A stretch of DNA of 64,000 nucleotides, taken from NCBI GenBank assembly GCA_018389105.1, contig JACATO010001097.1, forward strand, positions 124,001 through 188,000. The letters are read 5' to 3'. Below the pieces are notes generated by a model. It was given only the letters and a program-made list of their open reading frames with translations, was not told the origin of the DNA and searched no databases. Made by a program: the position numbers and the translations under genes. This DNA is from Nautilus pompilius. Its lineage: Eukaryota > Mollusca > Cephalopoda > Nautilida > Nautilidae. This document shows, one piece after another, positions 8,569 to 60,508 of this stretch (positions are counted from its first letter, which is position 1; each line of letters begins with the position of its first letter).

Positions 8569-8636
8569 GATTGTGGTTGTGTATACTGAACCAGACTGAG
8601 AGATTCATGGTATTTATACTGCATAAATAGTGATTT

Positions 8637-21658: not shown

Positions 21659-21764
21659 GTCCTGTTGAACGCCTTGAGGAAGAGTGAGAGAGAAGGAAGC
21701 ATGGAAGGTGATGATGATGAAGAGTTAAAACAGAACATCACCTGTGCCAGCTCTGATGGAGAAG
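21659..21764 (+). CDS. GLIS2: GLIS2-like exon A (N-terminal region, acidic)
   Basis: Acceptor TTTCTCTCAG|GTCCTG, donor GAAG|GTATTA; enters in phase 0 and leaves in phase 1. It encodes [16 protein letters not shown] followed by an acidic run DDDEEL. The LRKSERE part resembles the Leu/Arg-rich N terminus of GLIS2. It joins the next exon to give DGEG-VPLNGH. Confidence 0.8.
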
Positions 21765-24700
21765 GTATTACTATCTTCCCACCTTACATCCCTGGTTTTT
21801 TGCTGCGAAAGTAACTTTTATTTACTGTTAGACCAGTAAAATAAAAATGAAATATATAAATAAATATTATTTGTGAGAAATCTTTTAAATTAATTTTCCT
21901 TTTTCTTTGCAATTAGAATTGAATTGTATTTATCACAATCATAATCCAACTCTCTAGGGTTGCAGATCTTTGAAGCGGTTTCTACTGGTGATTTCAAGTG
22001 ATACTTACAGGTGGCGCTGGGCCCAAGAGATTTTTTTTGCTTTTCTGTACCTTAGCAATAACAGATCATTCTTACCAATTTTACAGAAGGGTTTTCCCCA
22101 TGTTGTCAAAGCATGAATGAGTGTTCCTCCCTGTCTGATTTTAGGTTTGCATAGATTTATGTTTCAATAAAGAGTCAGGTAGTGCCTAGAAACCTTAACT
22201 AACGCTTTGTGGAGGTGAGTAGGGGGAATGAGTTCATAAAATATTTATTTCAAAATATGTCTCTCTGTTCTGAGGGCACACAACACAGCGATGGAATTAT
22301 TTTAGAAACTTTACGTAAGAACACGGCCCGCTACAGATACCTCCAAATAGATAGATCTGTCGGAGCAGCACCATTCCTAGCATTGCAGAGGTGCTTTAAA
22401 TAAAAAAAAATGCCAAGCCAAACGATGCAGCTTCTAAGGCTGAAGAGTCATTCCATTAGACATTTGGAGGGGACAGCACATGCCCACACGCAGACGGACA
22501 GCCATAGTTGTGGACCTGCCAATGAAGTATCCCACGTAACAACCAATTTACCGGTGCATCTGTATAAGCGAAGATATTAGCCGTTTTCTGAACACCGCCA
22601 AATACACGTCCGCGGTTGCCTTTTAAAACAGTCCTTAATATTTCCCTACTAATTTTTTTTTTCTTTTTTTGTCTTAAGTCTGTTTTTGTGACAACAATAT
22701 TAATGAAACACACCTTTTTTGGGGGGGGGGATAAGCGTGAATTCGTTCCATAAGGCATCCCAGGTCTGAGCAGTTCTAAGAAGTCTACCCGGGGACTGTA
22801 CATCTTTTATTAGAAAAGTCTCCCCCCCCCCATTTTTTCCCCCTCCCACTCTTAACAAAAATCCATAAACACACTGCAGAAAGTTTACTGAACACCGTCC
22901 TTTATCAAAAGTCTACACATGGTTTGTGTTTGTGACATAGCTACTACAAGTTCAAAGTCGGGACATGCTCGGATTTCAGCCAATACAAAGGTTTAAGGAT
23001 CTTGATCTATAATTAATACTCTTAAATCTTGTTTTGTCAACTGCTGCCGTGTGTGTGTGATTAATACTTTATCCTGTTGATTATGCATCTAATGGGTATT
23101 GATTATGGATGTTCTCCACCCCGTTCTAAATTGAGTGACTAACAGGAAGGGTAGATAATGGATCTAATGGATTTTTTCCCTTGCACAAAACATTTCTTGC
23201 CCATCTGACTATCTAGTTTCCACAAACATAAACATTGTACTTACTGACATAATCAGCTTTATCTCTCATCTTGTTGAGGTGCAAGCCATAACTGCTAAAG
23301 CGGTATCACTGTCCTATGGACTTAGCCAGAACACCCAAACATATTCCACGCATTTTACATAAAGACTGAACTTGTTTCCTTTTCTGGATGAAGAAAGAAT
23401 GCCATGTACTGAAACAGTGAATCTTGGATGAGACTGTTGCTTAACTAGTATTTCTTCTATGTAACTGCTCAGCGTTGTTCACTCTCACATGGACCATGGT
23501 TATGAACTTCACTCGATGTTATGAGCTCTCTTGGAAGTATTATCAGTCATCATGCAGGGGGCAACGTAGAATATGCTCACATTTGCTGGCTCTCACTTAA
23601 CCACACACACAGCTTTCCATGCAAGATACTTTCTTCTATCTTATCATATACAGCCCATTTATACTCAGATACCTTCACCTGCCAACCTATCCAAAACTGT
23701 TTCTTACGTAGATAAGTATTGGCTATGTGTTTATTACAAAAGTTGGTAGGTTAGTTTAAGCTAAAGCTCATTAGTACTGGCTAATCGAACAAATGACTTT
23801 ACATTTCAGCTGTCTTTCCTATCTATCACCGCTATCAGGGTTCGGTCCTGAGATGCTTCCATTTTTGTAGAGTTCAAGTGATTCGAACTGACCTCTAACC
23901 CATGACTTGTTAGTCACTAAGTTTTTGGACCTCATAAATTACCAGCATCCAATCACTTAACCACATGTGATGTGTGCCACTAATATCAAAGAACTTTCCA
24001 GTTTTTATTTATTCCTTTCTGAAAAAAAGGTTTTATAACTTTAATTATGCCACTGTGAAAATAATAGACCAAAGTATGTAGTTTTTCTCCATTATTATGG
24101 TCAGGTGTGTTACTGATTGTATCAGTGAATCTTTCTAAAACCCTTATTTTCTGTAGGCTCCACACACCATTGACTTAAATTTTAACTGTTGGTAGTAGAA
24201 CTGTATCATACCTATCCTATCATGTTTTTAAGGTGTTATCTGTTGTACGTTGTTGCCTACATGGGAGACAACCTTTCTGGAGGAAGTGTAGTGCCGTGGC
24301 CGTCTGCTAGGTGCTGTTGCCAATCTTGCACACTGTAGGACTTGGCACTTTGGTGGAGACATTGTTGTTAAATGATTGGATTCACTAGATTTGTCGATTT
24401 TTAGGGGGCTTGAATAATGCCACTAACCATCAACTACATAGCATCAAGTACTTTCCACAACCAGGTGAGATCATTTACCTGGCTAGATGGCAAAATGTTT
24501 CCACTGAAGCATCGGCTGAGAGACGGTATCTGCCCTGCTCTCCTCCTAGGGGCAGCTTTGCTCAGTGTCATTTACTTACAAAGTAATTTGTTTCTAAAAT
24601 CCCTCAACAGCAAGTGGAAATTAGGCAATGCACTTCCACCGCCCCACTAGGTGTGATATTTTGATGACCTCCACTGGATTTCGAAGCTGGCTTAATCCCT

Positions 24701-27700
24701 ACTGTCATTGCCTAATCAGGTCTCCCACACCACTGCTTAATCCACAGCTCCAAAGGATTTGAAGGGAGGTTGGAGGAAGACGTAAACCCATCCTCCTTTC
24801 CTCATGGATGAAAGCAGTTCTAAGTGGATTAAGTTTATGCTTGACAAATTGACAGGATGTCTTTTTTTATTTATTTATTTGTAGCCCCTTTCATGGAAAT
24901 TCTTTCCCCTCAACCAATAGAAATAAATGTCCCTTTATGCAGGTCAGACTTGTTTTTGGATTGTGCTTTCCTGGGGTTATTAGGTATCAAGAGAATAGAA
25001 GCAACTCCAAGGTAGTCCTAACATTTCAAGTGCATGCAGTGTTACCTGGATTCTGCTTATTGCCATTTTGTTTTATTATTGTTTTTATTATTAAAGGAAA
25101 ATTGGATGTGGCTGGTTATTTGAGTAACAAAGAAAAAGCTAATCAATCTAGAGGTATACGTAGTGCAGTCTCGGAAAAGCTGGCTGAGCGCAGGGATTTC
25201 TCTTAAAAGGTGATTCGGTGATAAAACCAAGTAAAACTGAGTGCAGCTGATTTGTGTCTGTTCATGTGTTTCCTTATTCCCATCAAGACACAACATTTCC
25301 AGGACTGTTTACTTTTCAGATCATGCTTTGTGATTAGTTTATCTCTCCCCCCCACCTCACTGACAAACCAGCTGGGGTCCCACAGCGTTGCTCCATCAAC
25401 TGTTGCTAGTCATAGGAAGATTTGGATTCTGACCCCCTCCCGACCCTTTCCCACTAATCGTCCGCCCCCTCCGACAATTTTTGAATTTAATGAATTCCAG
25501 TAACAAACAGCCAGGTAGAAATTATTATCAGAGTATTATTTATGCCTCAGGTGAGCAGTTTTTGTTTCTTAAGAGCTCTCAGCAACTCGTTGGATAGACC
25601 AGCTCCAGGTACCATCAGGAGGCCTCGTATGTCAAAAAAAAAAAAAAAGATGCAGAAACGAGTTTCTGAAGAATATAAATAGTAAAATTTCTTTATCGTT
25701 TCAAAAGGAAAATCTAAAGCCTGCTTTTGGTTTGTTGGGGAAGTAGTCATGATATAGACTGGTGAAGGGTTAAAATGAATTTCTTAAATTTGAAAATAAA
25801 AGTGCCCCCCTTTTTTTTGTATGTAAATTATATTAGTCTAAGTTCATTTATTAAACAGGGAATCTGATAGCGCTTTTGTGGAGATGATTACCGAAATAGT
25901 AGAAATATGCATAACAGTGGCTCCCTCCTTTGTGTATGGTATTAACTGCAGGCATTGGGGTACAGAGTGGTTGGAGATTAAGTGTTAGTCCTTTATGTTC
26001 ACCTGTTTCGAATTTATTTGATGAAACTGTAGATATAATGGTTTATTTACACTCTATGTAGAGGTGTGGGAAGGGAGGGAAATCATTTGTTTCTCTTCCG
26101 TTATCTCCCAGTACAGACCCGTTTCATTCTGATGGAGTCATGCACGGTAATGCACTTTTGCGTTTGTCACGTACCAGTGCTACAGTGTTGAATCTCTGTC
26201 GTTATCTCCCCTTACAGGTGTGCCACTGAACGGCCATGCTGGTGATCTGAAACATGATATTGCTGTTTCGGAGAGCAGTTCTCTGCCAAATGAGCTGATT
26301 CCATCAAAAGATAGCATTCGCCCTGCTGTTACTGGTGCTACCACCACCCAGTGTTGCACTTCAGCGATATCTAGTCTTCCAGAATCATTCATGCCAACGG
26401 CAGGATTCAATTCCCCTGCTGCCATTTTTTTGCACAGCAATGGCGAAAACATGGATGAACCAATCCTTCAGGTGAGTCTCACTTCCCCTCCCTTTTATTC
26501 CACTCTTTTCTGCGTAAATCACCTTGCTCGAGGTTTCTCGGAGCTTTAGATGTGAACACGCCACAGATCCCTAAATAATAATAATAATTAAAGGACACTT
26601 CTAGTGCCCAATCTGCCCGTGGCTGCAGTAGTCAGCAAGGAAACCGATGAACAGCTGGATTTGAATTTGAAGTTTACGTCAAGTCAGTAATAAGGGAGAT
26701 GTCAGCTGATAGTTGTCCTTGCTTCTCAGGTATTCTCACTCTCCAGTCACCAGAAATCAGTCCCTGTCATTCAGAACCCAAGCCCCAAAATGGCCGTTCA
26801 ATTTTCAAAAATAAGTTTCTACTGAAATCGATGCGTGACTGAAACAGGGAATGGTAGAAGAGTGGGAGTTACCAATGCCATTTTATTGAAAAAAAATATA
26901 TTGTATCAACATTTTTGTGTGCAACCGATGAGAGTGAAAGACAAGAATGCGGAGCCTACCGCTGGTCTCAAGATCGGCCATCATCTGCACTTGGTTCATG
27001 GTGCATTGGTATTTCCAGATATCCCTTAACTGGGGATTCACAGGGTTCTGTCCATCGCTGTGCGGCCCTGGAGAGAAACTGTGTTCTCAAGCAAACCAAC
27101 ATATCTGTAAGCTTACAAGTAGGGCCGATATCACAAAGCATGCTGTGTGGTGCCCCCATGACCCCTTGTGTGTGTGTGTGTGCGCGCGCACGCACTTCCA
27201 TTTACATGCATTATGGTTTTGGAGTTATAAGCATCTGGCTACAGGAAGTAGATTTCTGGCCATTCAGGCAGTCCAAGACGTGCTGAGTTTCCAACAGCAG
27301 TAAATGCACAAGTTTGAACATCACTGTGCATATCGATCGCGGGATTAAATTGCATGGAATTTCTTAGCTTGATCGCAGCCCGCGAAAGATGACATGTTTA
27401 AGAGATACCGTGTTCTGACGCACACTTTTATTACAGTACACCCCCCACACACACACACACACAGACAGACTGCGTATGCACAGCAAGACTAAGATGTGTA
27501 AGATTTTCGAAGACTTGTGCTAGGTGGTCGATATTCCTTTCTTTGTTTTTCCATCCATCGGTCTGAAGTACGGAGATGACTTAACGATTAAGGTTGCAAA
27601 TAGTGCCAAGGACAAACCCCATGGTAAAACAAGTGACATTCAAGAAAACATCCAGGAACCAACCTTTCGCCAGCGGTGAGCGATATCTGGCTGCTGGAAA

Positions 27701-30700
27701 ATGGACCGTCAAGCAGCTGGCAGTTGACAGATCAGTAACCAAATTGGAGATGACAAATCTGTCCCTAGTTGAACCAAGTCCTTACAACAGACACACTTAT
27801 AGTGATTATTCATGTTTTTTTAACGCAAACAATAATTTATGTTAAAGTTTGGGCAATTTGATTGTACACAAAAAAAAAAAAAAGTTTTAGATTTTTTTAG
27901 GTTTACATCGTAGTAGAGTGTAGCAGGGATTTTGTGCATCGAGAGAAACTGAATTATTCATCTATTTGTGAAATTATAGATGGGTAAGTTAAAGGTTCTT
28001 ATTCCTTGTGGGTGGGGTGAGATTTCATGGCTTCTCTCCACTGCTGCCGATTTGAAATAACATATTCAGAATCTGTTGTTGTTTACTACTTGTAAATTGG
28101 CCAAACTCTGACACTCAGGACAAGGGTTCCTTTGTTTAGTACAGGGCGATGGGAAAGCAGCTATGAAGTGGAGTACAGTCGACCCCCGCATAATCGCGGT
28201 TTGGCATTCGCGGCCCCGGTTATTTGCAGAATTTTCTTAGAACCTAACTAATAATTATTTGTGTAATCGCAAATATCTTCCGCGATTTTTTATGGCTTTT
28301 TTCGTGGCAATATATATTTTTTCACACTTTTTATTGCTAAATTATTAATAACAATATAATTTGCTAATTTTGTAATATAAATACTAATGTAAATTCAGCA
28401 AAATATCAATATAAAATAAATGCTATTGGCTGGAGGTTTGAAAGTAGCCAATCCGAGAGTGTCACCCATTTCTCCTCGCTGCTGCCCACGAGGCGCTGTC
28501 TCAGGCAGATGCAGCCTCGCATCATCCCAGTTTACCGCGTGTAGCTATCTCGAGTGTTCCTCTGAGTGTTGTATTTTTATTAAGTTATTATTATATATTT
28601 ACTTATATTTTTTATTGTATTTTGACGTTTATAGGCATTTTTATGGACCACGTCCAATATTCGCGGTTTTTCACTCTTCGCGGGTGCTCAAGGGACGTAA
28701 CCCCCGCGAATACCGGGGGATAACTGTATGTGTAGTCATTTTTGATTCCGTTCCTTGTGCTTTGTTGTTTTGTAGCGTAGTTCCCAAAACGACCAACGGA
28801 TGGCAGTTCTGTAGTTCCCAAAATGACCAACAGGTGTTGGCAGTAAATTTGCAAAAGTGAAACGTAATTTTTGTGTAATGGTTCTTTCAAACACCAAACG
28901 AATCTTTCTCATCAAGAAAGTGTACATGAATAATGGCAAATACACCACAAGATGAATGCTGTGAGGGCATTGATTAGCAGATTTGTAGATACTGGTTCCG
29001 TTGAGGATTATCAGTGATCATGTCGGTCAAAAGTGCTGGAGGAGAAGCTGTCAAAATATTTCAGATGCAGGGCTTCAGAGCCCTTCAAAACCGCTGTTTC
29101 GACTTTCTCAACAAACGAATGTTTCATATGGGAGGGAACGCGCATACCGCTTTAAAAGAGTTAAATTTTTACCCGTATAAAGTGAACGTTGTGCATGAAT
29201 TGAAAGCTGTAGACCTCAGTAAGTGAGTGGAATATTGCAACTGGTTTAAGAATTCTATTGATGTAATCGGCGACAACATATTGGGTTCTTGATGAATGCT
29301 GGATTCATCACTCTGGATATGTTAATAGCCAGAATACCAGAATTTGGTCCACTTCTAACCCTCATGAACTGTTTGAGAAGCTGCTTCATGATGAAAAGAT
29401 TGGTTTATGGGTGGCTATATCGGGCCTATATTTCTTGAAAAAACCATCATTTCAGAGCGTTATCGTAACGACATACTGTATGCTTTTATTGGTGAGTTAG
29501 ACGAAGAAGAAATCGAAGATGCCTACTTCCAGCAGGAGGAGCCACCGCTCACACATCTGCTCAATCGATGAAACTCTGTAATACTTTATTTGTAAGAGTT
29601 GATGTATTGAAATATTTAAATAAAAACATAATAAATTTTCTATTGCATAGTTACTTTTTTATCACCCTGTAGCATTATGGCTAGGGTTTTTGTGTGGCTC
29701 CGGCATCACATCTCTGCATTGTTGGTGTGGTTCATTCACCATAGCCAGTGTGGTTCTTGTAAGTGGTGGTGAGGGGTAATCGGTGCCTTAACAATGGAAC
29801 AGAACCACCTTTTTGTGTGTGTGTGTGAGTGTGAGGGGGGGGGGAGAGCTGGTAAACAGATCGCAGTCGAATCTGCTTCGCTTACTCTTCAGCTGACACA
29901 CTGGCACCACAAACCTGTTCGTTATTCTTAAATGAGTGGCAGACACTTCAGTTACTTTTATTGCAGAGATGCGGAAAGTTAACCCAGTGACGTTTGAGAA
30001 CTAGTCTATTGGCTATAATTAACTGAAAAGGTTTAGTCTGCATTCATTGTGTCTTTTTCTCACCAAGAGTGAATCTGCTTATGTATAGAACCATCGCCGA
30101 TGCTGTAGAGTTAGGCACACAGCGTCATTTTTCTAGAAAGTGCAGTGTTGGAAGCACATGCTGGCCAGCCAGTAAGTCTGTGTCGCTCTTGATTTTTTTC
30201 TTCCCCTGCTGTTGATCGGCTTTGTGCATCAGAAAAACTGATCTGTGTGGGGAGGAAGGTGTGACCACTTTCCTGGATGTACACACAACATTACTGACTG
30301 TGAAGTCTGCAATGACTACTACTGCTTTCAGCTGGTGCAGTATCAAACTTCCTAAGCTGAGGTGCTGCAACAGTATCTGCATCAACTTCGGGTTCACCAG
30401 AGGTGGGGGGAAGCTGTTGGTGGCTGACGTGAATAAGGGCTAACCGCTTCCTTGATGCAGTATTCCTAATGGTGGCTTTTGATTTTCAGAGATGAGCCGC
30501 CTCTGGGTGTGTGAAAGCTTGGAGAAAGATCGCCACTGACTCAACCTGTACGAACACCTGATAAGAACGGGCAGATTTGTGTCAGTGGTGTGGGTGAGCG
30601 TTTGGCAAGGGTTAAAGAGATCTTGCCTTTACTAACTCCTCTCTAAATTTGCAGTACACTGAGCCATCTTTGGGAATACCCTCTTGACTGTATTCGATCA

Positions 30701-33700
30701 TAATTGCCACATCCTGTGGAAAAGAAAAACGAAGCAAGATGAAATACCTCCAGAACTGTTATGCGGGCTTTGGATCTTGGCTTATTATGTTTAGCTGAAT
30801 CACCATCATCTGAATAAGATGTAATCTTACTCCTTTGGTGTCTGCCCTTTGTTTGGAATCTGTCTTTTGTTTTCGTTTCCCTGACATCCTTATGTCATAA
30901 CTGAGCTGCTGAATTCCTGTCAGATCGGAGACTGTTAGAGATGGGCTAACACGGAGAATAACAGCATCCAGATAAACATAGACTAAAAGGAATGATGGGA
31001 CCCAAAGATATGTTCGACAACTCTGAATTATAAAGAAATTGGCGCTGGGGTTAATGAATTAAAACATTTTTAAAATTTGATCACTGCCGATGTTTGAGAG
31101 GAGTCAAGAGGAAGCCCGTTTCGTTGTATAACTGCTGTACATGGACTGCCATTGTTCGCATTCCTGGTGATGGGTTCCATTCTGTGAAAGGCAGGCTGTC
31201 ATCCATGATTGGTCACTATGCCATGTTGTTTCTCTCTCTCCTGCCAGGATAACATGGGACAGACAATGGGTAGATTACTGCTGATATGGAAACTTTATTT
31301 TTTAGTGTCCAAAGAACTCAAGCACAATTTTAATAAGCTAAAGACTTATTTTTCTATTTCTTTTAAAATGAGGAGAGTTGAGGCTTAATGTTGGAGCTTA
31401 TCTTGCAGCTCAGTCTTTTAGAGCGCCAGTCTGCTTTTAGCATTTCTCTCATTGTAGCCATTAGATTAGCAGAGAACGTTGCAAGCTTTAGAGATGATGA
31501 GTGTGTTTCCATATCCGTGCACAATAATGGCAAGCTTTGTTTGACAGGCATATGTTATGGTACCCGTTTGTTTTTTTTTCTTTTCCACCAGTTTGGTTGC
31601 TGGGCTGCCAAGGACAAACATGAATCACAAGCATTGCAGGTGTGACAAGGTGAAGACGTTGACAAGAGCTTTGTTCCCATTCGCAACCTTGCAGCAGAGT
31701 TGTGCATTGCCCCTTGCTTGACACTCTGAACGTGCTGCACCTGATACCTCAGAATAAATACCTGTGCAGGTAGAATAACAGCTCCCAGGGCTATGCATGT
31801 CATTGACAACAAAAGAACTGAGGAAATTTAGGTGGGAACTACTGCAGTGAAATTGTTGGAGCTCATATGTGCATTTGTGGTGGTGGTGGGAGAGTTCTCT
31901 TTCACAGTGGTTGCAGTTCTTCACTCTGATGCATATGTTCACATGCGTTGGTTGACCCGAGAACTTGCAGCCTAACACGGCAAGCTCAACAACTCGACCT
32001 TACGTTCTGCTCTCACAAAGAAAAGAACCGGCTTTGTTGAAGCATTTCGTTTTGCTGAAGTGTGGTTGTCGGGTCGCGTGGCTATATGGGAACACACCAC
32101 TGACAACTGGGATCAACAGACACGGGCACAGATTTCTCCAGTCTAAGAGCTGCTATCCCGAGCGCAGACTGCTGCATGACCTCAGCGATGCAAGCAGAGT
32201 TTGCAGGAATAAGTTGGTTCCTTGACAAATTCTAACATTGGGCAGGCTGACGTGACACAGAAATGTGATGGCCGTTTTTCAGTAACGTCCAGCGGCTTGC
32301 ACCACACCTCCACACTTCCCTTTGTCACGGAGAGGTGGATTATCAGATGGAGCTGTCATCTCTTTGTTTTACCACATGCAGACAATGAAGACCCGTGAAG
32401 ATGAACATGGCATTTTTATTTTACATTCTATAGTTAATTGCATGATGGTCAGTCATGTGATATGAATAAGCATCCTTATAGCTATGTAAGTTTACTGGAA
32501 AGCGCCACTCAAGAATAGACGGTTAAGAACTCATTTTTCATATTAAACTTTTTCTGCAGTTTTTATTTAAACACTCTTACTTGTTATTTTAATCTGAAAT
32601 GTAAAGGTTTTATACGCATTGAGCCTTCAGCTTGTTTACAGTGGGTGAAAGATAATTCTTTCATTTACTCCATCAGTTAGTTTCATTCTTCTCACACCTG
32701 CTTCCTGCCTTTTCTCAGCTGGTAACATTATGTATTGTTCTTCAGAGCCCTGTTCCCCTGTCTGCGAGTAGCCTCGGCCCAACCTCTGGCGCCCTGCAGG
32801 CATCTTTCCTGAAGATCTACTACCCAGACTCCAGGGATCTTTCCGTGGCTGTTGGCGAGGTTTTCAGCTGTCGATGGATGAACTGTGACAGGAAGTTTGT
32901 GTACCTGGACGACCTGGTCAACCATGTGAATGACCAGCATGTGAGGGTGGAGCGTCCAGAAGTAGAATATCAGTGCAAGTGGGAAGGTTGTCCAAGAAAA
33001 GGAAAAGGCTTCAATGCAAGGTAATTCCATGTTATCGCAGGTATTTGTGGCCTGCACACTCAGAACTGAGCTGAATATCTGAGAGCTTGGTTTCAATACT
33101 CTTTCATTTTTTCCATTTTGCAGGTACAAGATGCTTATCCACATCCGGACCCATACCAACGAGAAGCCACACAAATGTCCGCTGTGTGGCAAGTGCTTTT
33201 CTCGACTAGAAAACCTCAAGATACACAATAGGTCACACACAGGTACATATGTCTGTCAGTACACTGTCATGCTGCTTAATTAGCTCGACAATTTCTAAAG
33301 GATTTATAGTTTTCAGATAACGTTAGTATTAGGCGGACACAATATCAAGGGAGATAACTCAAATACCACTATTATTTGGTTTAATGTTCTCGTGCAAACA
33401 TATTATCCATATTATCCGCTGGTTGTGCACCTGCTGACACCAGGGAGAGAATGGAGCAATGTGGAGTCACTTAGCCTGCTTGCTTTTCTCTGTTATTACT
33501 GGAGGAAATACAGGCTAATTATTTACTCTCTACAGATCGCTTGTCCACTTTTTAAAATTAGTAAATTAAGTTACATTTTGGAAATTATCATTTTTATTTT
33601 TTTGTCATTAGCTCTTATTTACAACAAATAGTTGGCTTTTATTTTAACTCGCTTGGATGTTTGCACAGTTCTAGGAACTGTCTAATAAAAAGAGCAGCTT

Positions 33701-34612
33701 ATTTTGAATTCTGTAATTTAATTAGCTACTGGGGCCCTTGTCTTTGTGCTTAAACAAAATCCGGGCTGAGAAATGTGGTGTTAGAACAAATGATCAACTA
33801 GATATGTAAGATCTGTGGCAGAGAGAGAACTAGGAAGGAGAGATGGGATGAAGAGAAAGTGTGTTGGTAAGGTGAGTTTCCATGCAAGAAAATGGTTAGG
33901 TACCACAAAGGATTTTAATTTTTTTTATTCATCTCCTGTACAGTTAATGACTTGTCCCCCCCCTTTTTTTTACCGTTTTCTTTTTTAACTAGGAGAGAAG
34001 CCCTATGTTTGCCCAGTGGAGGGCTGTAATAAAGCTTACTCAAACTCCAGCGATCGGTTCAAGCATGTCCGCACGCACCAAGAAGAAAAACCCTACATCT
34101 GCAAAATGCCAGGATGTAATAAACGGTACACGGATCCCAGTTCCTTGCGGAAGCACATTCGGACACATGGTCACTACTTCCGCAAGGAGCAGAACTCTCA
34201 AGGAAAATCCAAACCCTGCCTGCCGCCCGCTCTCTCTTCGCTGCCAATCCAGAACCGGACTTTCTCGTTGCCGCCATCCTGCTTGATGAATCCTTCACTG
34301 AACACATCAATTATTTCTGTTCAGGGTGGCGTGGTGCCCCTGACAGGCCTCACGTCCAACCCCCTGCTTTCATCAACGATGCTCAACGCGCCGATCAGCA
34401 CACAGAGCACATCCACCCAGACAGAGGCACTGGCGGTGCTGCCTGCATCGCCACAGAAAAGTGATGTTGGCAGCGACTCGCTGGAAGCTGACGTGAAATG
34501 TCAGGACAGTCCGCTGGACCTGTCCACAAGCCCGCTGTCTGCTCACACCAGTGTGGAAGACTCGCCTGTCGACTGCAGTAGCCACTCGGCGAAGTGGGAT
34601 CTTCTCCACTAA
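21659..34612 (+). CDS. GLIS2: GLIS2-like Krueppel zinc-finger transcription factor (5' incomplete; five exons)
   Basis: A nuclear DNA-binding regulator of the GLI-similar family. Exons: 21659-21764, 26218-26471, 32746-33020, 33124-33242 and 33993-34612, giving 457 residues (human GLIS2 is about 524). All introns are GT-AG and phases agree across every junction. Numbering from the first residue in the window, finger 1 is C162-x4-C167-x12-H180-x4-H185 and is followed by four more C2H2 fingers. Finger 2 keeps the [20 protein letters not shown] signature and finger 3 [19 protein letters not shown], both typical of GLIS2 rather than GLIS1/3. Finger 5 has [18 protein letters not shown]. The C-terminal region is Ser/Pro-rich and contains PLDLS, the consensus CtBP-binding motif. 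A first exon with the start codon is missing from what I could find. A possible poly(A) signal is AATAAA at 35364-35369. Confidence 0.93.
23860..23950 (-). repeat. Possible tRNA-derived SINE fragment
   Basis: On the minus strand a tRNA-like order appears: TGACT-AACA-AGTCA resembling a shortened anticodon stem, then GGTCAGTTCGAATC, a close B box. The A box is weak. No tail or target duplication could be defined. Confidence 0.4.
26202..26217 (+). promoter_or_regulatory. Splice acceptor built from the GTTATCTCCC motif
   Basis: The polypyrimidine tract and AG of GLIS2-like exon B read GTTATCTCCCCTTACAG. The TTATCTCCC part (26202-26210) is one of six exact copies of this 9-mer, counting both strands, in the window. 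Confidence 0.6.
26218..26471 (+). CDS. GLIS2: GLIS2-like exon B (Ser/Thr/Ala-rich linker)
   Basis: Acceptor CCTTACAG|GTGTG, donor CTTCAG|GTGAGT; 254 bases, phase 1 to phase 0. It encodes a low-complexity Ser/Thr/Ala/Pro region between the N terminus and the fingers, with no recognisable domain, as in vertebrate GLIS2. Confidence 0.85.
27167..27193. repeat. (GT)n(GC)n microsatellite
   Basis: GT repeat passing directly into a GCGCGC run, a potential Z-DNA-forming tract in the GLIS2-like intron. Confidence 0.85.
28176..28726 (+). mobile_element. 551-bp TA-flanked MITE, copy 1
   Basis: Starts CAGTCGACCCCCGC after TA (28174-28175) and ends GGGGGATAACTG before TA (28727-28728). Ends rich in CGCGG/CCGCGA resemble pogo/Tigger-type termini. 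There is no coding capacity. It is the reverse complement of 38088-38638 along its whole length, with modest divergence, and both copies are 551 bp. It includes an ATTGG...CCAAT inverted pair near 28424-28453. Confidence 0.9.
28800..29671 (+). mobile_element. Mariner/IS630-type transposon relic
   Basis: A decayed transposase (28878-29571) is flanked on the left by GTAGTTCCCAAAATGACC and on the right by AGTTACTTTTTTATCACCCTGTAG, which look like worn termini but no longer pair well. The left side contains an imperfect tandem duplication of about 35 bp (near 28773 and 28811). It sits directly beside MITE copy 1. Confidence 0.6.
28878..29571 (+). pseudogene. Decayed mariner-type (DUF4817/DDE) transposase
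   Basis: Fragments in shifting frames follow the order of this transposase family. They are an N-terminal helix-turn-helix ([19 protein letters not shown], then [14 protein letters not shown]), a second HTH ending [16 protein letters not shown], then VEYCNWF. A DDE-region piece follows, [20 protein letters not shown] with WVAISG. Last comes [12 protein letters not shown], where the usual FQQDGAxxHT has decayed to [10 protein letters not shown]. Several stops and frameshifts make it non-functional. Confidence 0.75.
32746..33020 (+). CDS. GLIS2: GLIS2-like exon C (zinc finger 1 and first half of finger 2)
   Basis: Acceptor TGTTCTTCAG|AGCCC, donor GCAAG|GTAATT; phase 0 to phase 2. It encodes finger 1 (CRWMNC...HVNDQH) and the first half of finger 2 ([16 protein letters not shown]). 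The intron splits finger 2 inside FNA-R-YKML. Confidence 0.95.
33124..33242 (+). CDS. GLIS2: GLIS2-like exon D (rest of finger 2, finger 3)
   Basis: Acceptor CCATTTTGCAG|GTAC, donor CACACAG|GTACAT; 119 bases. It encodes [18 protein letters not shown] and the third finger [21 protein letters not shown], a CX2C finger as in GLIS2. Confidence 0.96.
33349..33357 (+). repeat. GGGAGATAA motif
   Basis: One of six exact copies in the window; context CAAGGGAGATAACTC. The others are 26101-26109 (-), 26202-26210 (-), 36077-36085 (-), 56915-56923 (+) and 63768-63776 (+). Confidence 0.7.
33993..34612 (+). CDS. GLIS2: GLIS2-like exon E (fingers 4 and 5, C-terminal tail, stop)
   Basis: Acceptor TTTTTAACTAG|GAGAG; ends at TAA 34610-34612. 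Finger 4 is [20 protein letters not shown] and finger 5 [20 protein letters not shown]. The tail is about 150 residues, Ser/Pro/Leu-rich, with [10 protein letters not shown] about 40 residues before the end. Confidence 0.97.
34509..34523 (+). other. PLDLS motif (predicted CtBP docking site) in GLIS2-like tail
   Basis: Codons for P-L-D-L-S in the context [12 protein letters not shown]. PxDLS is the established CtBP-binding consensus, and vertebrate GLIS2 is reported to bind CtBP1. That this site works here is inference. Confidence 0.6.
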
Positions 34613-36375
34613 ATGGCGCCACTGCCACCACAGCAACTTTCATTTGTTTTGTCACTGTTACCAAAGAAAGAGAACTATATCAGAAGTTACTGACGTTTTT
34701 ATCTCCATGTTATCTGTATATAGATTGCTTGTAAATATGACTTGACTTACTAACTACACATTCACTGTAGCAATGTTGCTGATTTGCCTTTGGAATGCTG
34801 TTAAATGCAATAGACTATTTATTATTATTATTATTATTAACATTCTTTTACTTTAGTTATAACGCTGATGCAGAACTGACCTTGTAAAAATCTTGTCCAC
34901 ATGATGGCATTCAACTGTTTAACCATGATAACATCTTGGCAGACATCACCATAACAACCAAGAACAAACACTACATAGTATTGGTCAACATACATAATTT
35001 AAAAAACAGGAGTGTTTTTCTTTCTTGGAACTTGAAATAATTACTTACATTACTTAGGAATGGGTCTAGTTTCAGAATTTATATATATATAGATGTTAAC
35101 CTTTTCCACATCGCATCCATGACTTCTGATATCCATTGTCTCCGTTCTGTACCTGATGGGTTGAGAATCAAGGGGTCTGGTGTCAATACAAAAGACTAAA
35201 ATGAACAAATCAACATTGGAGCCGACTGTCACATCCCATAAAAATATGATTAAACTGAAATTGGACACAACCCTCTCGATTCTCTTCTCAGCTGATGATA
35301 TTGTGTATATGATCTGAGCATCCTCGTTCACTGGTTTTTCTTCTCATGAGACAACATCCAGTTAATAAAATTTTCATTTTTTTTACAGACAGGACCTCAG
35401 CAACAAAAAAAAAAAATTGCGTAAGGGGAGATTATCCGTCTAGTATACCTTGTATTTATCACACTGTAACTCTGCTAAATGCACTGGGCATATGAAAAAA
35501 AAAAATTCTTTTTCTCAATTTAAATAGGTAACTGAATACAAACACAAACTGCTTGTGCAGTATCCAATATTGAGGAGGATAAATAAACCTGTCACAGGCC
35601 CTAAACATAATACTTGAGTGTTGACCCCATGGTACCACATTTAGCAGCTATATTCAGTACTATTATAAAAATTGACTGGAATATTTAAATACATTTATGT
35701 TATGAAAAGCTGAAAATTATTTTTTAATAAAAGTTCTCTAAAGTATTAGATATCAGTTGAATTCTCCTGACAGTTAAGAATTCCTGTCATTATTACATGA
35801 GCTAATTTATTTATGTAGGAAAATCTCTTGTGTCAGTTGGATTCTGATAACAAATCCATAGGTAGTGTTCAGAAAGCTTCTGCAAGATTTCTAGAGGCAT
35901 CTAGAACAAAGAGGAAGCTGGCATTTAAGAGACTATTTGTAATGGGGGACTCTGCAGTAGCGCCCAGTCAGTCTCCCTCTGCTGCTGAAGCCAGCCAAAC
36001 AATTATTGGTCAAAATGGATGGACTCGTTACAGTTTGTTTTTTCAAAGCACACGTACATTTAGGCAAATCTTTGAGTTATCTCCCTTAGGCCACAAGTAA
36101 CAGGTCTCAGGTGGTAAGCGGAAACAGCTAGCAGCCCGTCGTTGCGTTGCAAAGAAAAAGAGTTGAACAATTTTCTCAAACGGTATCTGGACAATGACTA
36201 TTATTTCAGACCGAGTCCACCTGCCACCACCCTCAAGTTTTGTCTTAGTACAAACAGATCATTCTGTTCTTAAAAGTTCCAGGATGGTAACCATAATGCA
36301 GTTCAGAAGTTCTTTTTGAAACTTTGTTACATAAAAGTGGCAAGCAATAACATTTCAGTAGCCTTTTAAATTACT

Positions 36376-36381
36376 TTTATT
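36376..36381 (-). terminator. Candidate PAM16 poly(A) signal AATAAA
   Basis: First AATAAA on the minus strand after the PAM16 stop, about 225 bases downstream. Confidence 0.45.
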
Positions 36382-36435
36382 ATCCAAACAACTATGATAA
36401 TTTTATCACTTTTTTGTGTCTGTACAAACGATATT

Positions 36436-36455
36436 TACACACACACACACACACA
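36436..36455. repeat. (CA)n microsatellite
   Basis: Short CA tract in the PAM16 3' region. Confidence 0.85.
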
Positions 36456-36604
36456 GGTAGGCCAGCTGTCTCATCATGATGCATTATTATCTTTCCAGCT
36501 TCATTCCCAAGCAGAGCCCATAAACAACTGCGACAATCATGGGGATATCTACGCAGCATAACATTATTATAACAGTCTTCTTGCCACCTAGAGTATTTCC
36601 ATTA

Positions 36605-36685
36605 TCAAGACTCTGGCGAGCTGTTCTTCTGTTTTTGATCTTGGTTTATCAATTCTATGTCCAATCTCTCTTTAGCTCTGTACAC
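36605..36685 (-). CDS. PAM16: PAM16 exon 4 (C terminus and stop)
   Basis: Acceptor TTACCAG|GTGTAC; encodes [12 protein letters not shown] and a polar tail, ending with TGA at 36607-36605. Confidence 0.95.
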   Translation of the reverse strand: MYRAKERLDIELINQDQKQKNSSPES

Positions 36686-39600
36686 CTGGTAACAACGAGA
36701 GATAATCTTGCAATTAGATTAGAAACCAAGCTGGAACAGTTAGATGGGATTGACTACTTCTGGAGAAAGAAAAATTGTAGAAAATAGCAGACATGTTTCA
36801 GGTGCTCTTCTGAGGGCTTATTCCACAGAATGCATAAATATTAAATTTTTTGTTATAAATGTAATTGTGCTGTTAATTTTATGAATTCTGGAAAAACTGT
36901 TACATGGTGTATAGAAGGACAAGGTATAATTCATCTCCCAAAGACTGGAAACAGTACTTCAGCCACATAGGTGGCGAAAAATCAGGTACCTGTGATGAGA
37001 ATTGTCTTTATGCCACAAGTTCATTTTTTGACAATACTACCTGTGATAGGAAGAGACTTTCAAGAACTGATATACTAAAATCAAATTTAAAAAGAAAATA
37101 ATCAAACATGCTGTATGTTATGTACTCTCACAAGTTGTTTGACTCATTAACTCACATTTAAAACAAGCCATGGATTCTGTAATAACTTACCTTTGACTGT
37201 ATATACAATGAACCTCCCTTGGACTTCTCATTGGTCTCAAAAAGATGCTGGAAATTTTTCTGAATGGTCTCGGCATCATTAACATCACTAACATTTAAAA
37301 TCTGCTTGGCTTCCTGTGAAATAAGACAACAATTTTCATTCAGTTTCACAAACTATATTCCTTGTGTACATATCAGCTACAAACCAAGAGGTAACGTGTC
37401 CATTTTTGAGATAACTGATTTAATATAAACATGTAATCATCTTGTGGGACACATGGCTTTGAAGTGAGTACTTATCCCTGTTAAAGGTAGACTTACAGAT
37501 GTTTAATTTAGTAAACCTTTAATAATATCAGTGGCGTAATTTTGTGTGTACAGCACACACACTACTAATGTTGCAACGTAGCATAATGTGATTACCCTCT
37601 GTGTCTGATGTCTTACAATGTTCTCCAATAAGAGGAAAAGGAAAGGAGACATTGATTTTAAAAACTAATCACCATCAACTAGTATTCATTAATATTCATT
37701 TCTCCAAGCTACAAGAACACATTTTTATTAGATGCCTATAACTCTTTTCAAACCTGAATAACAGGAACTACAAGTGACTGGGAGAGTAAATGAGGAGACA
37801 GAGGATAGACATCTTTGATCAAGGTAATGATGGATTTGCAGACACCTAACAAAAATGTTTACCCAAATAAATCAAAATATTGGACAACTGCATATTTTAG
37901 AATATTTAACACTTGGTTTTGTTTATGCTTACAAGGACTTATTTTTGTGTTTTCAATATCATTTTTCCACACTGCATTTTGCATCTGGAAGTGAAGAGGT
38001 CATACAGGTCATAGAATAAAGTAAATTGGTGCATATCATCAGGTAAAAATGTCAAAATAGTTTTAAGTACTTTTTAAAACAAATATACAGTTGTCTCCCG
38101 GCATTCGAGGGGGTTACGTTCCTAGAGCACCCGCGAATATTGGACGTGGTCCATATAAATGCCTATAAATGTCAAAATATAATAAAAAACATGTAAGTAA
38201 ATACATGATAATAATTTAATAAAAAAATAACACTCAGCGAAACACTAGAGATAGCTACACGTGGTAAACTGGGATGATGCTGGGCTGCATCTGCCTGAGA
38301 CAGCACCTCGTGGGCAGCAGCCAATCAGCAGCGAGGAGAAATGAATGACGCTCTCGGATTGGCTACTTTCAAACCTCCAGCCAATAGCGTTTATTTTATA
38401 CTGATATTTTGCTGAATTTACATTAGTATTTATATTACAAAATTAGCAAATTATATTGTTATTAATAATTTAGCGTTAAAAGCGTGAAAAAATATATATT
38501 GCCACAAAAAAGCCATTAAAAAATCGCGGAAGATATTTGCGATTCCACGAATATGCGGGGGTTTCCACGAACAGTTATTAGTCGGGTTCTAAGGAAAATT
38601 CTGTAAATGCTGAACCGCGATTACGCGGGGGTCGACTGTATTGCCTGGCAAAGAATTTGCTTTATAGATATGATGGCCTTTAATTGTTACGTTTACAGAT
38701 ACTAACAAAAACCAGCCATTTGGTTTCAGTTGGCTGCTGCCTATTTCAAAGTCTTTCACATCAATCAGTGCTGGTACTTCCCTACCTGCATATTTACCCT
38801 TTGTCCCTGTAGGATTATAGGATACTGTTGTTTCGTAATACTTTAAAAAGCACTCCTGGTTTGGACAAGTGAGTGCCATATCACTGATCATGTGATGCCT
38901 GGTGTGCATGGTAATTATGCCCCATTGTGCACTCTTACCATATCGACACTCTACTATGCCAATTCTTTCTACATCTTCACTCATTTAAAATTCCCGTACT
39001 AAGTATCAAGTCTGTACATGAGTTAGAATCAAGAGCTGAAATGTCAAAGACAGAAAGCTATACACTGCAAACTAAGCAAATTCTACAAGAATTAATGAGG
39101 CAGCAAGGAAATTTGGCATCAACAGGAATGGAATTCAAGAGTAAATGCAATACAGTGATAAGGGGAAAAATAATTATGAACTTGACGAAGATGAGGAAGT
39201 GGCTACTTGTGGGTGGTCAAAAAATAAGATGATGATGAAAGAGACTAATGAATTTTTTTATTGGTTTTCCAAATGGCTTTGCAAATGGACGAAGCACCAC
39301 ACATTTCTAAGAGATAGAAAGCAAATGTCCCCGAGACCAGGAGGAGGAAGTAAAAGCACTCCTTCATTACATCAATGTCTTTATCAGAAACATGGCTGAG
39401 ATAGCTGTTTGTTCTGACATGCTGGGCAGTGTAACTCTGTGCTACTCTGGTAAGAAAACTATGGGCTTGGGGCAATGGCTGATGGGTAAAAACTATTGTC
39501 CTTAATGTTTTGAAAGGGAAACAATAATGGGAAGCACATGTGGATAGTGTGGAGGGCAGAACCAACAGGTAAAAAACGTGTAGAATTTCTTGCTTCCTAA

Positions 39601-41105
39601 TGTGATCAGGAAGTGTTTAAAAAAAGACAGGCACATATCCAGAGTGATGACACGTGGAATGCAGATTCAGATTCAAGTGATGAGAGACTGCAGTGTCAGG
39701 CGTAGTGCAAGTGATTAATAACGTTGAGGCTGAATGGTGCCGCAATGAAAGAGTAGGAAAGTTTTTCATTTCCAAAATACTTAATTTCTGATAAGTCGAT
39801 CGTGTTTTCTGTTACGTTAATATAAATCGTGCCTGGCTTAGAAGAAGAATCATAATACATAACTGTTGCTGTACAAAGTCTTCAGAAGTGAGTTAGATCT
39901 GCTGTCGGGTGAGCACAGCAGAAAACAGGTACAGAGGCTAGCATACCTGCTGCTGTACAAAAAGAAAACAAAACAAAAAAAAAAGCTGTTGTTTACCTGT
40001 ATGGACATTCCTGTCAGAGAGTCAGCTGCTGCTCGTCTTGCACCTTGACGGCCCCCTCCTGCCTGTCGACTGGCATTGACCTCCTGCTGCACAGCCCGAG
40101 CGAATGCTCTAGCTACTACCTGCACGCCTCCAAGTATAATCTGAGCCAGATACTTTGCCTGGTACAGAAAGAGAAGACAATGCAAACAAAATCAGTATCT
40201 TTAGCATCAACTTGCATTTCACGCGGCCTCCATGAAGCGCTACACTGGGGTGGGGTGGGATCTGTGGTGGGTAACTGACGAGTGGCTATCGCAACAGCGG
40301 CCTAAAGGATGCTTCTTTTAGCGGGTTTCAATGATCGGATGAGATGTCACCATTACGAATTTAAACCGAAGAATGCCTGATTACACACAGAACCTGGCAG
40401 CATCTCCAGTTCCTGATTCAGATAGAGGGCAAAGTTTTTACTTCACTTTTCGCACCATTAACAAGAGGCCCTTGGGTTCCGATCGATATCCCACCCCCCC
40501 CGCCAAAATCCCTCCTCCAAGAAAGGCCCCATCCACTTATAGTTACCTTCTGATGCAGATCTCAGGAGAAGCTGGGAGCTAGCGAAGCTCAAGCCGCCGG
40601 ATGTAATACCGAACGCAAGAGGTGCAGATAAGAAGATGAGGACGACTTCCGATCCGATTGCATCAGTTTATCCCCTACAAACAAAAGGCCCCGCCGTCGG
40701 TCGGCGAAGAAGAAAGGAATACAACTTTGGGACCCGGGGGGTGGGGTGGGGTGGGGTGGGGTTAGGTGGGGACAGGACGGAGCTGGTTAAGTTTGTTACC
40801 GAGATACAGTAACTAAACCCGTCGATGCTGATACTTTACCTTTACAGGTAGGGAGGGGGTGGGTGGGGAAGGGGCGGTTGATCCGGCTGTTCGTCATTAT
40901 GGCATTTACCTGTATCCAACCATTCCTGGCACCGCAGCCATTTAAACGACGACCGTGGATACGTAGAGGAGGAGGCAGACATTTAAACTGTCTGCTGGCC
41001 GTCCCCCGATTCCTCGTATGAATCCTAAACGAGGACCCAAAAATGCTGCCCTCCGTCAAAGGATCATCGCAATTAACCCCCCAACCGGGGACATTTCCTT
41101 ACCAT
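36605..41105 (-). CDS. PAM16: PAM16 / Magmas, mitochondrial import motor subunit TIM16
   Basis: A J-like subunit of the TIM23 presequence translocase-associated motor at the matrix side of the inner membrane. It binds PAM18 and limits its stimulation of mtHsp70. Coding exons on the minus strand: 41105-41103 (ATG only), 40158-39997, 37313-37191 and 36685-36605, giving 122 residues (human 125). Residues 2-21 are the hydrophobic [20 protein letters not shown] segment, very close to metazoan PAM16. Residues 56-122 carry the J-like fold starting [25 protein letters not shown] lies where true J proteins have HPD, the hallmark loss in PAM16. The C terminus is [15 protein letters not shown] and a short tail. 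All junctions are phase 0. Confidence 0.97.
37191..37313 (-). CDS. PAM16: PAM16 exon 3 (J-like domain)
   Basis: 123 bases, 41 codons, acceptor TTTCACAG|GAAGCC, donor TCAAAG|GTAAGT. It encodes [11 protein letters not shown] to GGSLYIQSK. Confidence 0.97.
38088..38638 (-). mobile_element. 551-bp TA-flanked MITE, copy 2 (inverted relative to copy 1)
   Basis: Flanked by TA at 38086-38087 and 38639-38640. Its right end reads GGGGGTCGACTG, the complement of copy 1's left end. Full-length match to 28176-28726 in opposite orientation. It carries CCAAT-type pentamers near 38321, 38350 and 38382. Confidence 0.9.
38639..38984 (-). CDS. Unrecognised open frame inside PAM16 intron, running into a MITE
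   Basis: Opens at an ATG with an in-frame TAA immediately upstream ([20 protein letters not shown]). It has a protein-like composition: [21 protein letters not shown], then [21 protein letters not shown] and [19 protein letters not shown]. After about 115 codons it crosses the boundary of MITE copy 2, and the last 16 codons (to the stop at 38589) come from the MITE. I do not recognise the family. It could be a fragment of a transposon or a retrocopied gene whose end was cut off by the MITE, or a chance open frame. It is on the same strand as PAM16. Confidence 0.35.
39997..40158 (-). CDS. PAM16: PAM16 exon 2
   Basis: 162 bases, 54 codons, acceptor TGTACCAG|GCAAAG, donor ATACAG|GTAAAC. It encodes [11 protein letters not shown] through a Gly/Ala/Arg-rich linker to SLTGMSIQ. 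Confidence 0.97.
40159..41102 (-). other. PAM16 intron 1 with G-rich tract
   Basis: CpG-rich intron next to the divergent promoter. It contains the GGGGTGGGGT tract at 40734-40771. Open frames here are artefacts of GC content. Confidence 0.7.
40734..40771 (+). repeat. (GGGGT)n tract, potential G-quadruplex
   Basis: At least six G4 runs separated by single T or TTA on the plus strand, which is the template strand for PAM16, about 350 bp inside PAM16 intron 1. Confidence 0.8.
41103..41105 (-). CDS. PAM16: PAM16 exon 1 (start codon only)
   Basis: AGAA-ATG|GTAAGG on the minus strand. The codon before exon 2 must be Met and the frame agrees, so the first coding exon is just ATG with a strong donor directly after it. 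Confidence 0.85.
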
Positions 41106-41593: not shown

Positions 41594-44500
41594 GCCCTTT
41601 AAATGCTAATCTAGTCCATGTCCACGAATGTTGACGGTGGTCGCTCCAACTTCCTTGGGAGACGATATCTGGTGTGACAGCACCCGAGTCTCTCTCGTCT
41701 TCCCCACCCCCAGAGGGAGAGGTGGCTTATGTCGGGCATCCGGGGCCCTCGGGAGGCTGCTTTTCCATTCGCGCTTGTTTTGGGTCGAGACTGGCCAGCC
41801 GGCGGGTGGGACGGGGTTAGTTGGGGGGGGGGGGCTCCCGGGTGAGCTGAGCAGAATTAGCGGGACGACTCGCGTTGACCGGGATCGCCACACTGCTACA
41901 TGCAAAGAATTCGGGTGTGAGGTTCCGTGCTCCCGCCCTCGACCCTAAGCATTCGTCTACACCAGTGGTTCTCAACCCTTTTTTGGGCCATGTCCCACCT
42001 AATCACCTCTAAAATCCTGATGCCCCCCCCCCCATGTGGTGATATATAATTCTTAACTCCGTTTCAGCTGAAGAAGCCTAAAACGCCAATACCTTGGTCT
42101 AAACAGCCTCAAAAGAACATGGCATCCATGAAATAAACAAAAGACAGTTAAAGTTTTGAGCAAGAAATTACTGAAAATATTGTAAGAAAAAATATTAAGT
42201 GGTATTAGATTTTAATAATGATACATATGATAATAAGAGAGAATTCACAGGTAATAAAGAGAGAGAAAATTTCTATATTTATGAAAATATTTGTGGATTG
42301 TCTCACAAAAACAGCAAATAAAAATTCAAAACATGTAATGGAAAACTGAAATGTACTATGAACACAAACTAATTTGAATGGGAGCTTATTTGATCATTTT
42401 AATTACTGTACAATAAAGTATAGGTTCCTATCAAATGCAAAATGCCATTTGAGCACACCTCAAGAAAAGCGGAATAAAGTTAGTGAGACCCTTGTGCTTC
42501 ATGCCTGCTGCAAAGAGATTTTATATTAGGCACTAATTTAGTCAGCTTTAGTCTCAAATCTCCTCGTTTACTGATATCCAGTGAATTTCTTTTCTTCTAG
42601 TAACAAATCATTTACAACGCTAAAGCCACATTCAGCTAAATATGAAGATGGAAACGGTAACAACAGTTTCCTTGCAAAGCTAGTTGAATTTGGGTATTTA
42701 GTTTCTGTCTCATCACAAAGCCATGCCATCGCTCCTTTCATGTTGAATAAAGTTTTAACTGACTCATCATTTTTTATTTCCGAGAGTTCTTCTTGGTACT
42801 GCACTGAAACATCAGATAAATCCATAAGCACTGGCTGCATCACCCACGATGAAAAATTAATCTGTTTTAAATCAGAAAATCTTTCTTTAAAATCAGAGGC
42901 CAATATTTTCAGATGATCCACAATGACAAGCACAGCAGCCTCAGTCGGCTCACATTTTTTTAGCCAATGAAATTGGTCAAAATGTTTGTCAGAAATATTT
43001 TTTTGGCATAACTCTATAAATGAGATAAAGCCAAATATCTTCGCCTTTGCATCAACAAGTGTTTTATTTGTTCCTTGAAGTTGTTTATTCAGCACATTCA
43101 GTTTTTCGAAAATATCTGCTAAATAACTCAAAAACGCTTTTCCATCAACGGTTAGCAGGTGCTTCATTTCAGACTTGTCACTTAGAAAGCCACTAAGTTC
43201 ATCAAACAGTTCCACGAATCTTTTCAAACAATTCCCTTTCGAAAGCCACCGTACCTCAGTGTGAAGTAAAAGACTCACATAGTCTGAATTGTTATCTTCA
43301 CAAAATTTCTCGAAAAGACGCTCACATTTGGCATTAGTTTTGATAGCATTGATAAATTTTATAACTGATTTCAGTACCTCATTAAGTACAGGAGAAATAT
43401 TTTTCGACACTAAGTTCTCTCTATGAATAACTCAGTGCACAAGAAGCATCTCCGGATTCTCATCTTTCATCAATTTTAAGCAGCTATTTTTCTTGCCCAT
43501 AATAACAGGAGCACCATCAGCTGCACAAGATGTTATGTTTTCCATTGGTATATTATTGATATCTAAGTAGTATTTTAGTTTATTATATATATCAGCGGCG
43601 GTAGTGGTGGTATCTAAAGATTTGCAGAATAACATTTCTTCAACAAATTCACCTTTATCAATATATCTTACATAAGTTAGCAATAAGGCCTCACTGCCAC
43701 TCACAGTTGATTCATCCATTTGTACTGAGAATTTTCTTGATTTCAGCTTTTCAACAAGTTGTGTTTCAATATCTTCACTCATTTCATCTATTCTTCTCCT
43801 AACAGTGTCGTTACTGAGTGGCATGGCTTTAACATCTTTGTCATCTTTTTCCAGAACTGTTTTAAGAAATGCAGATATTGATGGTTTAATTAAATCCTCC
43901 CCTATAGTGTGATTTTTTCCAGATTTAGCAATGAGTAAAGAAATTTCATAACTTGCCTCAAGAGTACGACTGATAGTAACAGTTTGTGCAGTGAACAGAG
44001 ACTTTATTGTTGATCTTTTTTCAAACTTATTCTTTAAAGATTTGAAGTAATTCAAATCTGAATTTACATACGCACTATGTTTCGCCTTCAAATGCGCCTC
44101 AAGACGACCTCGTTTCATTGATTCGTTGGTCAAGCATTGTTGGCATAAGAGACAGAAAGGTGACCTTTCATCATGAGCAGCGGGAAATTCCTCTGAATAC
44201 TGACGAACTTTCTTTTTGCTTGCACTACTCATTTTATGCATAGGGGCTGTGACTGAAATAAATGAGTAATCTTAAGAAGTGAAATGCACTTTCAGAATTT
44301 AAGACGTTTAAGTTAACACAAAAATGAAATAAAATAATTAGAACGTTCAAGTAAACACACAAATGAAATGAAGTTAACACATAATTAATAAAACAATGCC
44401 GATTCGTTTTATACAGCATATAAGGACAGACAGTGCGGTACACCAGATTTTTACGAATGTGTGAGAAATTTGTATCACGTATTGACGATAATCGTCTGAC

Positions 44501-60487: not shown

Positions 60488-60508
60488 ATGGCGAGCGACG
60501 ACAACAAG
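60488..60508 (+). CDS. PPxY gene exon 1
   Basis: Seven codons, MASDDNK, phase 0. The donor lies at the first unit of a GTAG microsatellite. Confidence 0.7.

Follow-up and report, generated by a model that had tools for sequence, protein, structure and literature searches.

Microsynteny of the transcription-factor genes Tfap4 and Glis2 is described as deeply conserved in metazoans and as reaching the sponge (PMC5429095; Gaiti et al., 2017), in a study that draws its gene pairs from Irimia et al. (2012) and that reports enhancer-like elements in the second intron of sponge Glis2. For conserved gene order, two accounts are currently under discussion, namely regulatory constraint with bystander genes and plain lack of rearrangement (PMC8851819). 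A stretch of 64,000 nucleotides from Nautilus pompilius (positions 124001-188000 of contig JACATO010001097.1, here C1052, in a genome of 727.6 Mb and 2558 contigs), referred to below as the window, was found to carry a GLIS2 gene, for a nuclear regulator, and a PAM16 gene, for a mitochondrial import protein, tail to tail. With TFAP4 located elsewhere on the same contig, the order and strands of a three-gene block, TFAP4(-) GLIS2(+) PAM16(-), were directly seen. The same two transcription-factor genes are neighbours here as in the published metazoan microsynteny, which, in the main text of its description, does without PAM16, whereas the Nautilus contig adds PAM16 as a convergent third member. 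The TFAP4-Glis2 block is already known (PMC5429095); PAM16 as its convergent third gene is the addition made here. With TFAP4 on the contig, the GLIS2-PAM16 pair, at first only likened to its human counterpart, becomes an enlargement of a block already in print. Coordinates below are window positions unless prefixed by C1052.

GLIS2 (21659-34612, plus strand) comprised five recognised coding exons with AG/GT junctions, which spliced into one open frame of 457 residues. Exon A (21659-21764) begins with a splice acceptor and an upstream exon is therefore expected; a motif search for such an exon found none. Exon B (26218-26471) was compatible in phase with both of its neighbours, exon C (32746-33020) encoded the first zinc finger and the greater part of the second, and exon D (33124-33242) encoded the rest of the second and finger 3. 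The last coding exon, E (33993-34612), contained fingers 4 and 5 and the C-terminus and ended in a TAA stop codon (34610-34612). The five tandem GLI-type C2H2 fingers of exons C-E aligned with GLI in structure 2gli_A (residues 41-189 of 198 against 3-152 of 155; E 5.6e-57); the artificial zinc-finger array Aart (2i13) gave a lower E value (3.2e-79), via repeated short matches. Finger identity was 113/148 with human GLIS2 and 89/148 with human GLIS3, both human sequences serving as provisional references, and 88/146 with GLI1 in the 2gli_A alignment. Finger 3 of the Nautilus gene has the form C-x2-C, a two-residue gap relative to the C-x4-C of GLI1 and of the GLIS3 reference. Judged by its predicted fingers, which resemble those of GLIS2 more than those of either GLI or GLIS3, the zinc-finger gene is GLIS2, and these identities sharpened the label 'GLIS2-like' of the initial annotation to GLIS2. 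A genome-wide finger search for GLIS2 paralogues was flooded by generic zinc fingers (at least 220 matches at E <= 1e-10, with 150 of 704 candidates scored); the best listed match outside the window reached 96.1 bits, against 208.2 bits for the best exon in the window. A codon-score scan was trained on exons that the same scan subsequently recovered, and is by itself no evidence.

PAM16 (41105-36605, minus strand) yielded a spliced product of 122 residues with an intact frame. Its ATG start codon (41103-41105) forms the last three bases of exon 1 and is immediately followed by a GTAAGG donor. Exon 2 (39997-40158) and exon 3 (37191-37313), which encodes the J-like domain, each matched Pfam family PF03656 (2.0e-6 and 3.5e-12, respectively), and exon 4 (36605-36685) ends in the stop codon TGA. 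The spliced product matched PF03656 over model positions 2-120 of 127 (1.2e-39; 135.7 bits, cut-off 30.3), matched the J-like domain of the solved TIM16 structure 2guz_B (1e-11) and was identical to a provisional human PAM16 reference at 74/120 positions. A genome-wide search with the PAM16 family returned two matches, both of them exons of this gene. A GC-rich stretch at C1052 164.5-166 kb (threshold 52% GC, 500-base windows) is compatible with a PAM16 promoter.

The stop codons of GLIS2 and PAM16 were separated by a spacer of 1992 bases (34613-36604). Three open reading frames (ORFs) of at least 70 amino acids lay wholly within it; none of the three had a Pfam match above the curated cut-off (best E 0.13), and a hidden gene in the spacer was rejected on that basis. 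No Rfam family at gathering score and no tRNA (ARAGORN) was found in the window, spacer included. A copy search over 287 kb of the contig at E 1e-8 gave no further copy of the spacer, and the repeats inside it were all short. Exons, open frames and spacer thus confirmed the claim of the initial annotation that GLIS2(+) and PAM16(-) lie tail to tail with no recognisable gene between them, and its coordinates proved exact.

A motif scan of both spacer strands placed candidate GLIS2 poly(A) signals at 35249-35731 on the plus strand (ATTAAA at 35249; AATAAA at 35364, 35582 and 35726) and a proximal PAM16 AATAAA at 36376-36381 on the minus strand, 224 bases past the stop codon. The gap between the last GLIS2 AATAAA (35726-35731) and this proximal PAM16 signal (36381-36376) was 644 bases. 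If the proximal signal is used, the predicted GLIS2 and PAM16 transcripts need not overlap. The initial annotation had named shared 3' sequence as a possible constraint on the pair; this was rejected, since the poly(A) signals of the two genes are separate and even the nearest are 644 bases apart. A related explanation, in which overlapping convergent 3' ends allow the two transcripts to regulate each other or to share a terminator, could apply if the proximal PAM16 signal were skipped in favour of the more distal minus-strand signals found by the same scan (35811, 35728 and 34823). With the 644-base separation set against it, this explanation was considered very unlikely.

Among at least 45 listed basic helix-loop-helix (bHLH) matches in the genome, one was on this contig (C1052:46979-47089, minus strand). 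The corresponding bHLH exon (C1052:47140-46982; PF00010, 1.2e-11) reads RPRPLSPKAQLEQEKRIRREIANSNERRRMQSINSGFQSLKTLLPHHGEKLSK. The next exon on the minus strand, at C1052:44693, encodes a leucine zipper (AAILQQTAEYI...) and reads AAILQQTAEYINNLEREKTKLMAQNAQLRSLLEEQP, and a C-terminal ORF on that strand (C1052:42551-43000) contains SRRNLETIVEAIRHLEG. From their apparent hallmarks, we take these three elements to be TFAP4. Pfam gave no match to either the zipper exon or the C-terminal ORF, and a PDB search yielded just two other bHLH proteins. TFAP4 lies upstream of GLIS2 and divergent from it, with 98,519 bases between its bHLH exon and exon A of GLIS2 (C1052:145659). At the same 52% threshold, which no 500-base window passed from C1052 53.75 to 158 kb, a stretch rich in GC at C1052 ~49.5-53.75 kb is compatible with a TFAP4 promoter. 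The interval between the two genes (C1052 53-145.6 kb) contained 46 ORFs of at least 95 amino acids, ten of which were run against Pfam. Five of these ten had a match at 0.01, all of transposon type and three above the curated cut-off, and five had none. The matches were to DDE_1 (pogo-like), to a BED-like finger and DUF4371 (hAT-like) and to DDE_3 and a helix-turn-helix (Tc1/mariner-like), those to DUF4371 and the helix-turn-helix falling below their own cut-offs.

Several mobile or repeated elements were observed around the three genes. Fragments of a Tc1/mariner-type transposase (DDE_3, 1.9e-16) lie upstream of GLIS2 at 7577-8604 (minus strand). An interspersed repeat of ~450-600 bp, 81-88% identical in the printed alignments, occurred in five copies in the 287 kb searched (window 38082-38640 and 28174-28729; C1052:9231-9828, 44999-45445 and 231189-231767), and PAM16, GLIS2 and TFAP4 each had one intronic copy. 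Just upstream of PAM16 (42568-44271, minus strand), a pair of long neighbouring ORFs (287 and 279 amino acids) resembles a hAT-type transposase by eye and had no Pfam match at 0.001. Downstream of PAM16, ORFs at C1052:196225-196650 (plus strand) and C1052:203988-204455 (minus strand) look similar to each other by eye and contain hydrophobic segments reminiscent of a small membrane-protein family; neither had a Pfam match at 0.01. A further GC-rich, promoter-like stretch at 59000-61000 had no recognised gene alongside, and one long ORF there was without a Pfam match.

In the human genome, TFAP4, GLIS2 and PAM16 presumably occupy 16p13.3 in the same order and on the same strands. The mammalian SRL-TFAP4-GLIS2-PAM16-CORO7-VASN locus and the Nautilus block would thereby agree in the order and strands of TFAP4, GLIS2 and PAM16, the cattle strands being deduced from published gene relationships. 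In cattle, the single-nucleotide polymorphism (SNP) rs110749311 is given as 'PAM16/GLIS2, downstream variant' (PMC4804490) and a gene list includes TFAP4, GLIS2, CORO7 and VASN (PMC7947242). A goat list includes ADCY9, SRL, TFAP4, GLIS2 and VASN (PMC9902602), and a human SNP at 16p13.3 is labelled GLIS2-TFAP4 (PMC5290311). Read-through from human CORO7 into PAM16, which are tandem genes, is reported (PMC4006740; PMC10605842). The CORO7-PAM16 tandem and the cattle list together point to transcription of PAM16 towards GLIS2 in mammals. This suggests that mammalian PAM16 is flanked by GLIS2 and CORO7 and is convergent with GLIS2, as is presumably the case at the human locus. The cattle SNP (PMC4804490), the read-through (PMC10605842) and the cattle list (PMC7947242) in this way support the mammalian convergence on which the initial annotation had relied.

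The CORO7 side of the mammalian locus differed. Adjacency of CORO7 and PAM16 is reported for all vertebrates analysed and as absent from Saccoglossus and Ciona, and is dated to early vertebrates (PMC10605842). While CORO7 stands by PAM16 at the mammalian locus, the 487-kb Nautilus contig was without a coronin match: none of the three coronin-type (DUF1899) matches in the genome lay on it. CORO7 as a block member here, or as part of a CORO7-PAM16 read-through unit, was rejected on this ground. Given the early-vertebrate date of that junction and the absence of a coronin match from the contig, what Nautilus has in common with mammals is the side made up of TFAP4, GLIS2 and PAM16. In line with a conserved metazoan microsyntenic block, the same neighbours were found in distant lineages, in Nautilus pompilius from its genome and in mammals from statements in the cited papers. 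In a literature search that covered mostly titles, abstract openings and some passages, no treatment of a conserved GLIS2-PAM16 adjacency was recognised.

Several points weigh against retention of an ancestral block. The fly orthologues crp (TFAP4), sug (GLIS2) and blp (PAM16) lie on different chromosome arms, and this scattering indicates that the block can be broken and argues against an absolute constraint. Drosophila sugarbabe is itself termed the Glis2 orthologue (PMC8530363). PAM16 and CORO7 are both missing from the goat list and PAM16 from the cattle list as these are given (PMC9902602; PMC7947242); these omissions are put down to annotation. PAM16 is named zero times in the sponge study's main text (PMC5429095). 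Outside mammals, the GLIS2-PAM16 junction was looked at in a single invertebrate, Nautilus pompilius. Finally, the Pfam comparison covered ten of the 46 ORFs in the TFAP4-GLIS2 interval, where a gene, for instance one split into short exons, could have escaped notice.

Inheritance from a shared ancestor was nevertheless favoured, because TFAP4 lies upstream of and divergent from GLIS2 and because the TFAP4-Glis2 pair is itself in print as a metazoan microsynteny (PMC5429095). That the block has a single ancestral origin, its likeness to mammals being inherited rather than coincidental, was considered very probable. Degrees of confidence given here are judgements and not exclusive shares. If GLIS2 and PAM16 had instead been joined independently in two lineages, the resemblance would be a coincidence; the reading of many windows genome-wide yields some chance matches, and one invertebrate only is involved. 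Against this, a rough estimate without a computed control gave ~1/1000 for the named pair within one ancestral linkage group (~2/700 x 1/4), and the chance becomes far smaller once TFAP4 is also in place. Independent joining was therefore judged extremely improbable.

As to why the order was kept, the explanation we lean towards, with some confidence, is that TFAP4(-) GLIS2(+) PAM16(-) represents a retained ancestral three-gene block with mixed causes of retention. TFAP4 and GLIS2 are probably held together by the regulatory DNA in their surroundings: such DNA, in the long TFAP4-GLIS2 interval and in the GLIS2 introns, would serve one or both transcription-factor genes, and breaks within it would be selected against. 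PAM16 would be a housekeeping bystander, kept through the short spacer at its junction with GLIS2. That spacer is probably mostly occupied by the 3' untranslated regions of both genes, which would leave few breaks possible without transcript damage, and shared regulation of PAM16 with GLIS2 would not be required. For this division of causes, with regulatory DNA acting on TFAP4 and GLIS2 and the short spacer on PAM16, we put the chances at about even.

Two other explanations overlap with this mixture. In the first, retention is purely passive and results from slow rearrangement of the lineage and a short spacer, without selection. The spacer is indeed just 2.0 kb, and low recombination is left as an alternative for conserved microsynteny (PMC8851819). 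Moreover, hundreds of metazoan blocks have been retained, with 275 in one squid (PMC9023564), so that one more block is not in itself surprising. Passivity explains less well why TFAP4 and GLIS2 are still linked over 98.5 kb with transposon insertions, and we regard it as possible, with the balance somewhat against it. In the second, PAM16 is fixed by function, its introns or flanks or the spacer holding enhancers of GLIS2 (or TFAP4). The bystander model is described as established for such pairs (PMC8851819; PMC5429095), and a developmental regulator such as GLIS2 next to housekeeping PAM16 is the usual pairing. Genomic regulatory blocks with bystanders (Kikuta 2007; Engstrom 2007; cited in PMC8851819) likewise combine a gene of developmental control with a housekeeping neighbour of unrelated function; in those blocks, regulatory elements of the target gene lie inside or beyond the bystander, and at the Nautilus locus such enhancers or conserved non-coding elements would be putative. 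The spacer, without another copy in the stretch searched, fits functional fixation, while the repeat in PAM16 intron 2, with four other copies there, and the spacer's zero matches to a CTCF-like consensus, whether in core or in loose form, do not. Fixation of PAM16 by enhancers was therefore viewed as rather unlikely. Overall, the observation is confirmed and, with TFAP4 as third gene and the published microsynteny (PMC5429095) in its support, the ancestry proposed in the initial annotation is likely; the structural cause proposed with it is unproven, and its shared 3' variant is disfavoured.

Should the junction prove conserved across phyla, PAM16 would join the known TFAP4-GLIS2 block. The boldest form of this idea, a single regulatory block spanning Bilateria, perhaps all animals, with PAM16, an essential gene of mitochondrial import, locked beside the developmental repressor gene GLIS2 since before the protostome-deuterostome split, with GLIS2/TFAP4 enhancers in or beyond PAM16, appears doubtful at present. 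If retention is confirmed, the locus would test why gene order lasts, by setting the long TFAP4-GLIS2 interval against the short GLIS2-PAM16 spacer, with vertebrate-only CORO7 as a contrast. It would also matter for interpreting association signals that fall between PAM16 and GLIS2 in cattle and human, since GLIS2 may be the target of a variant downstream of PAM16.

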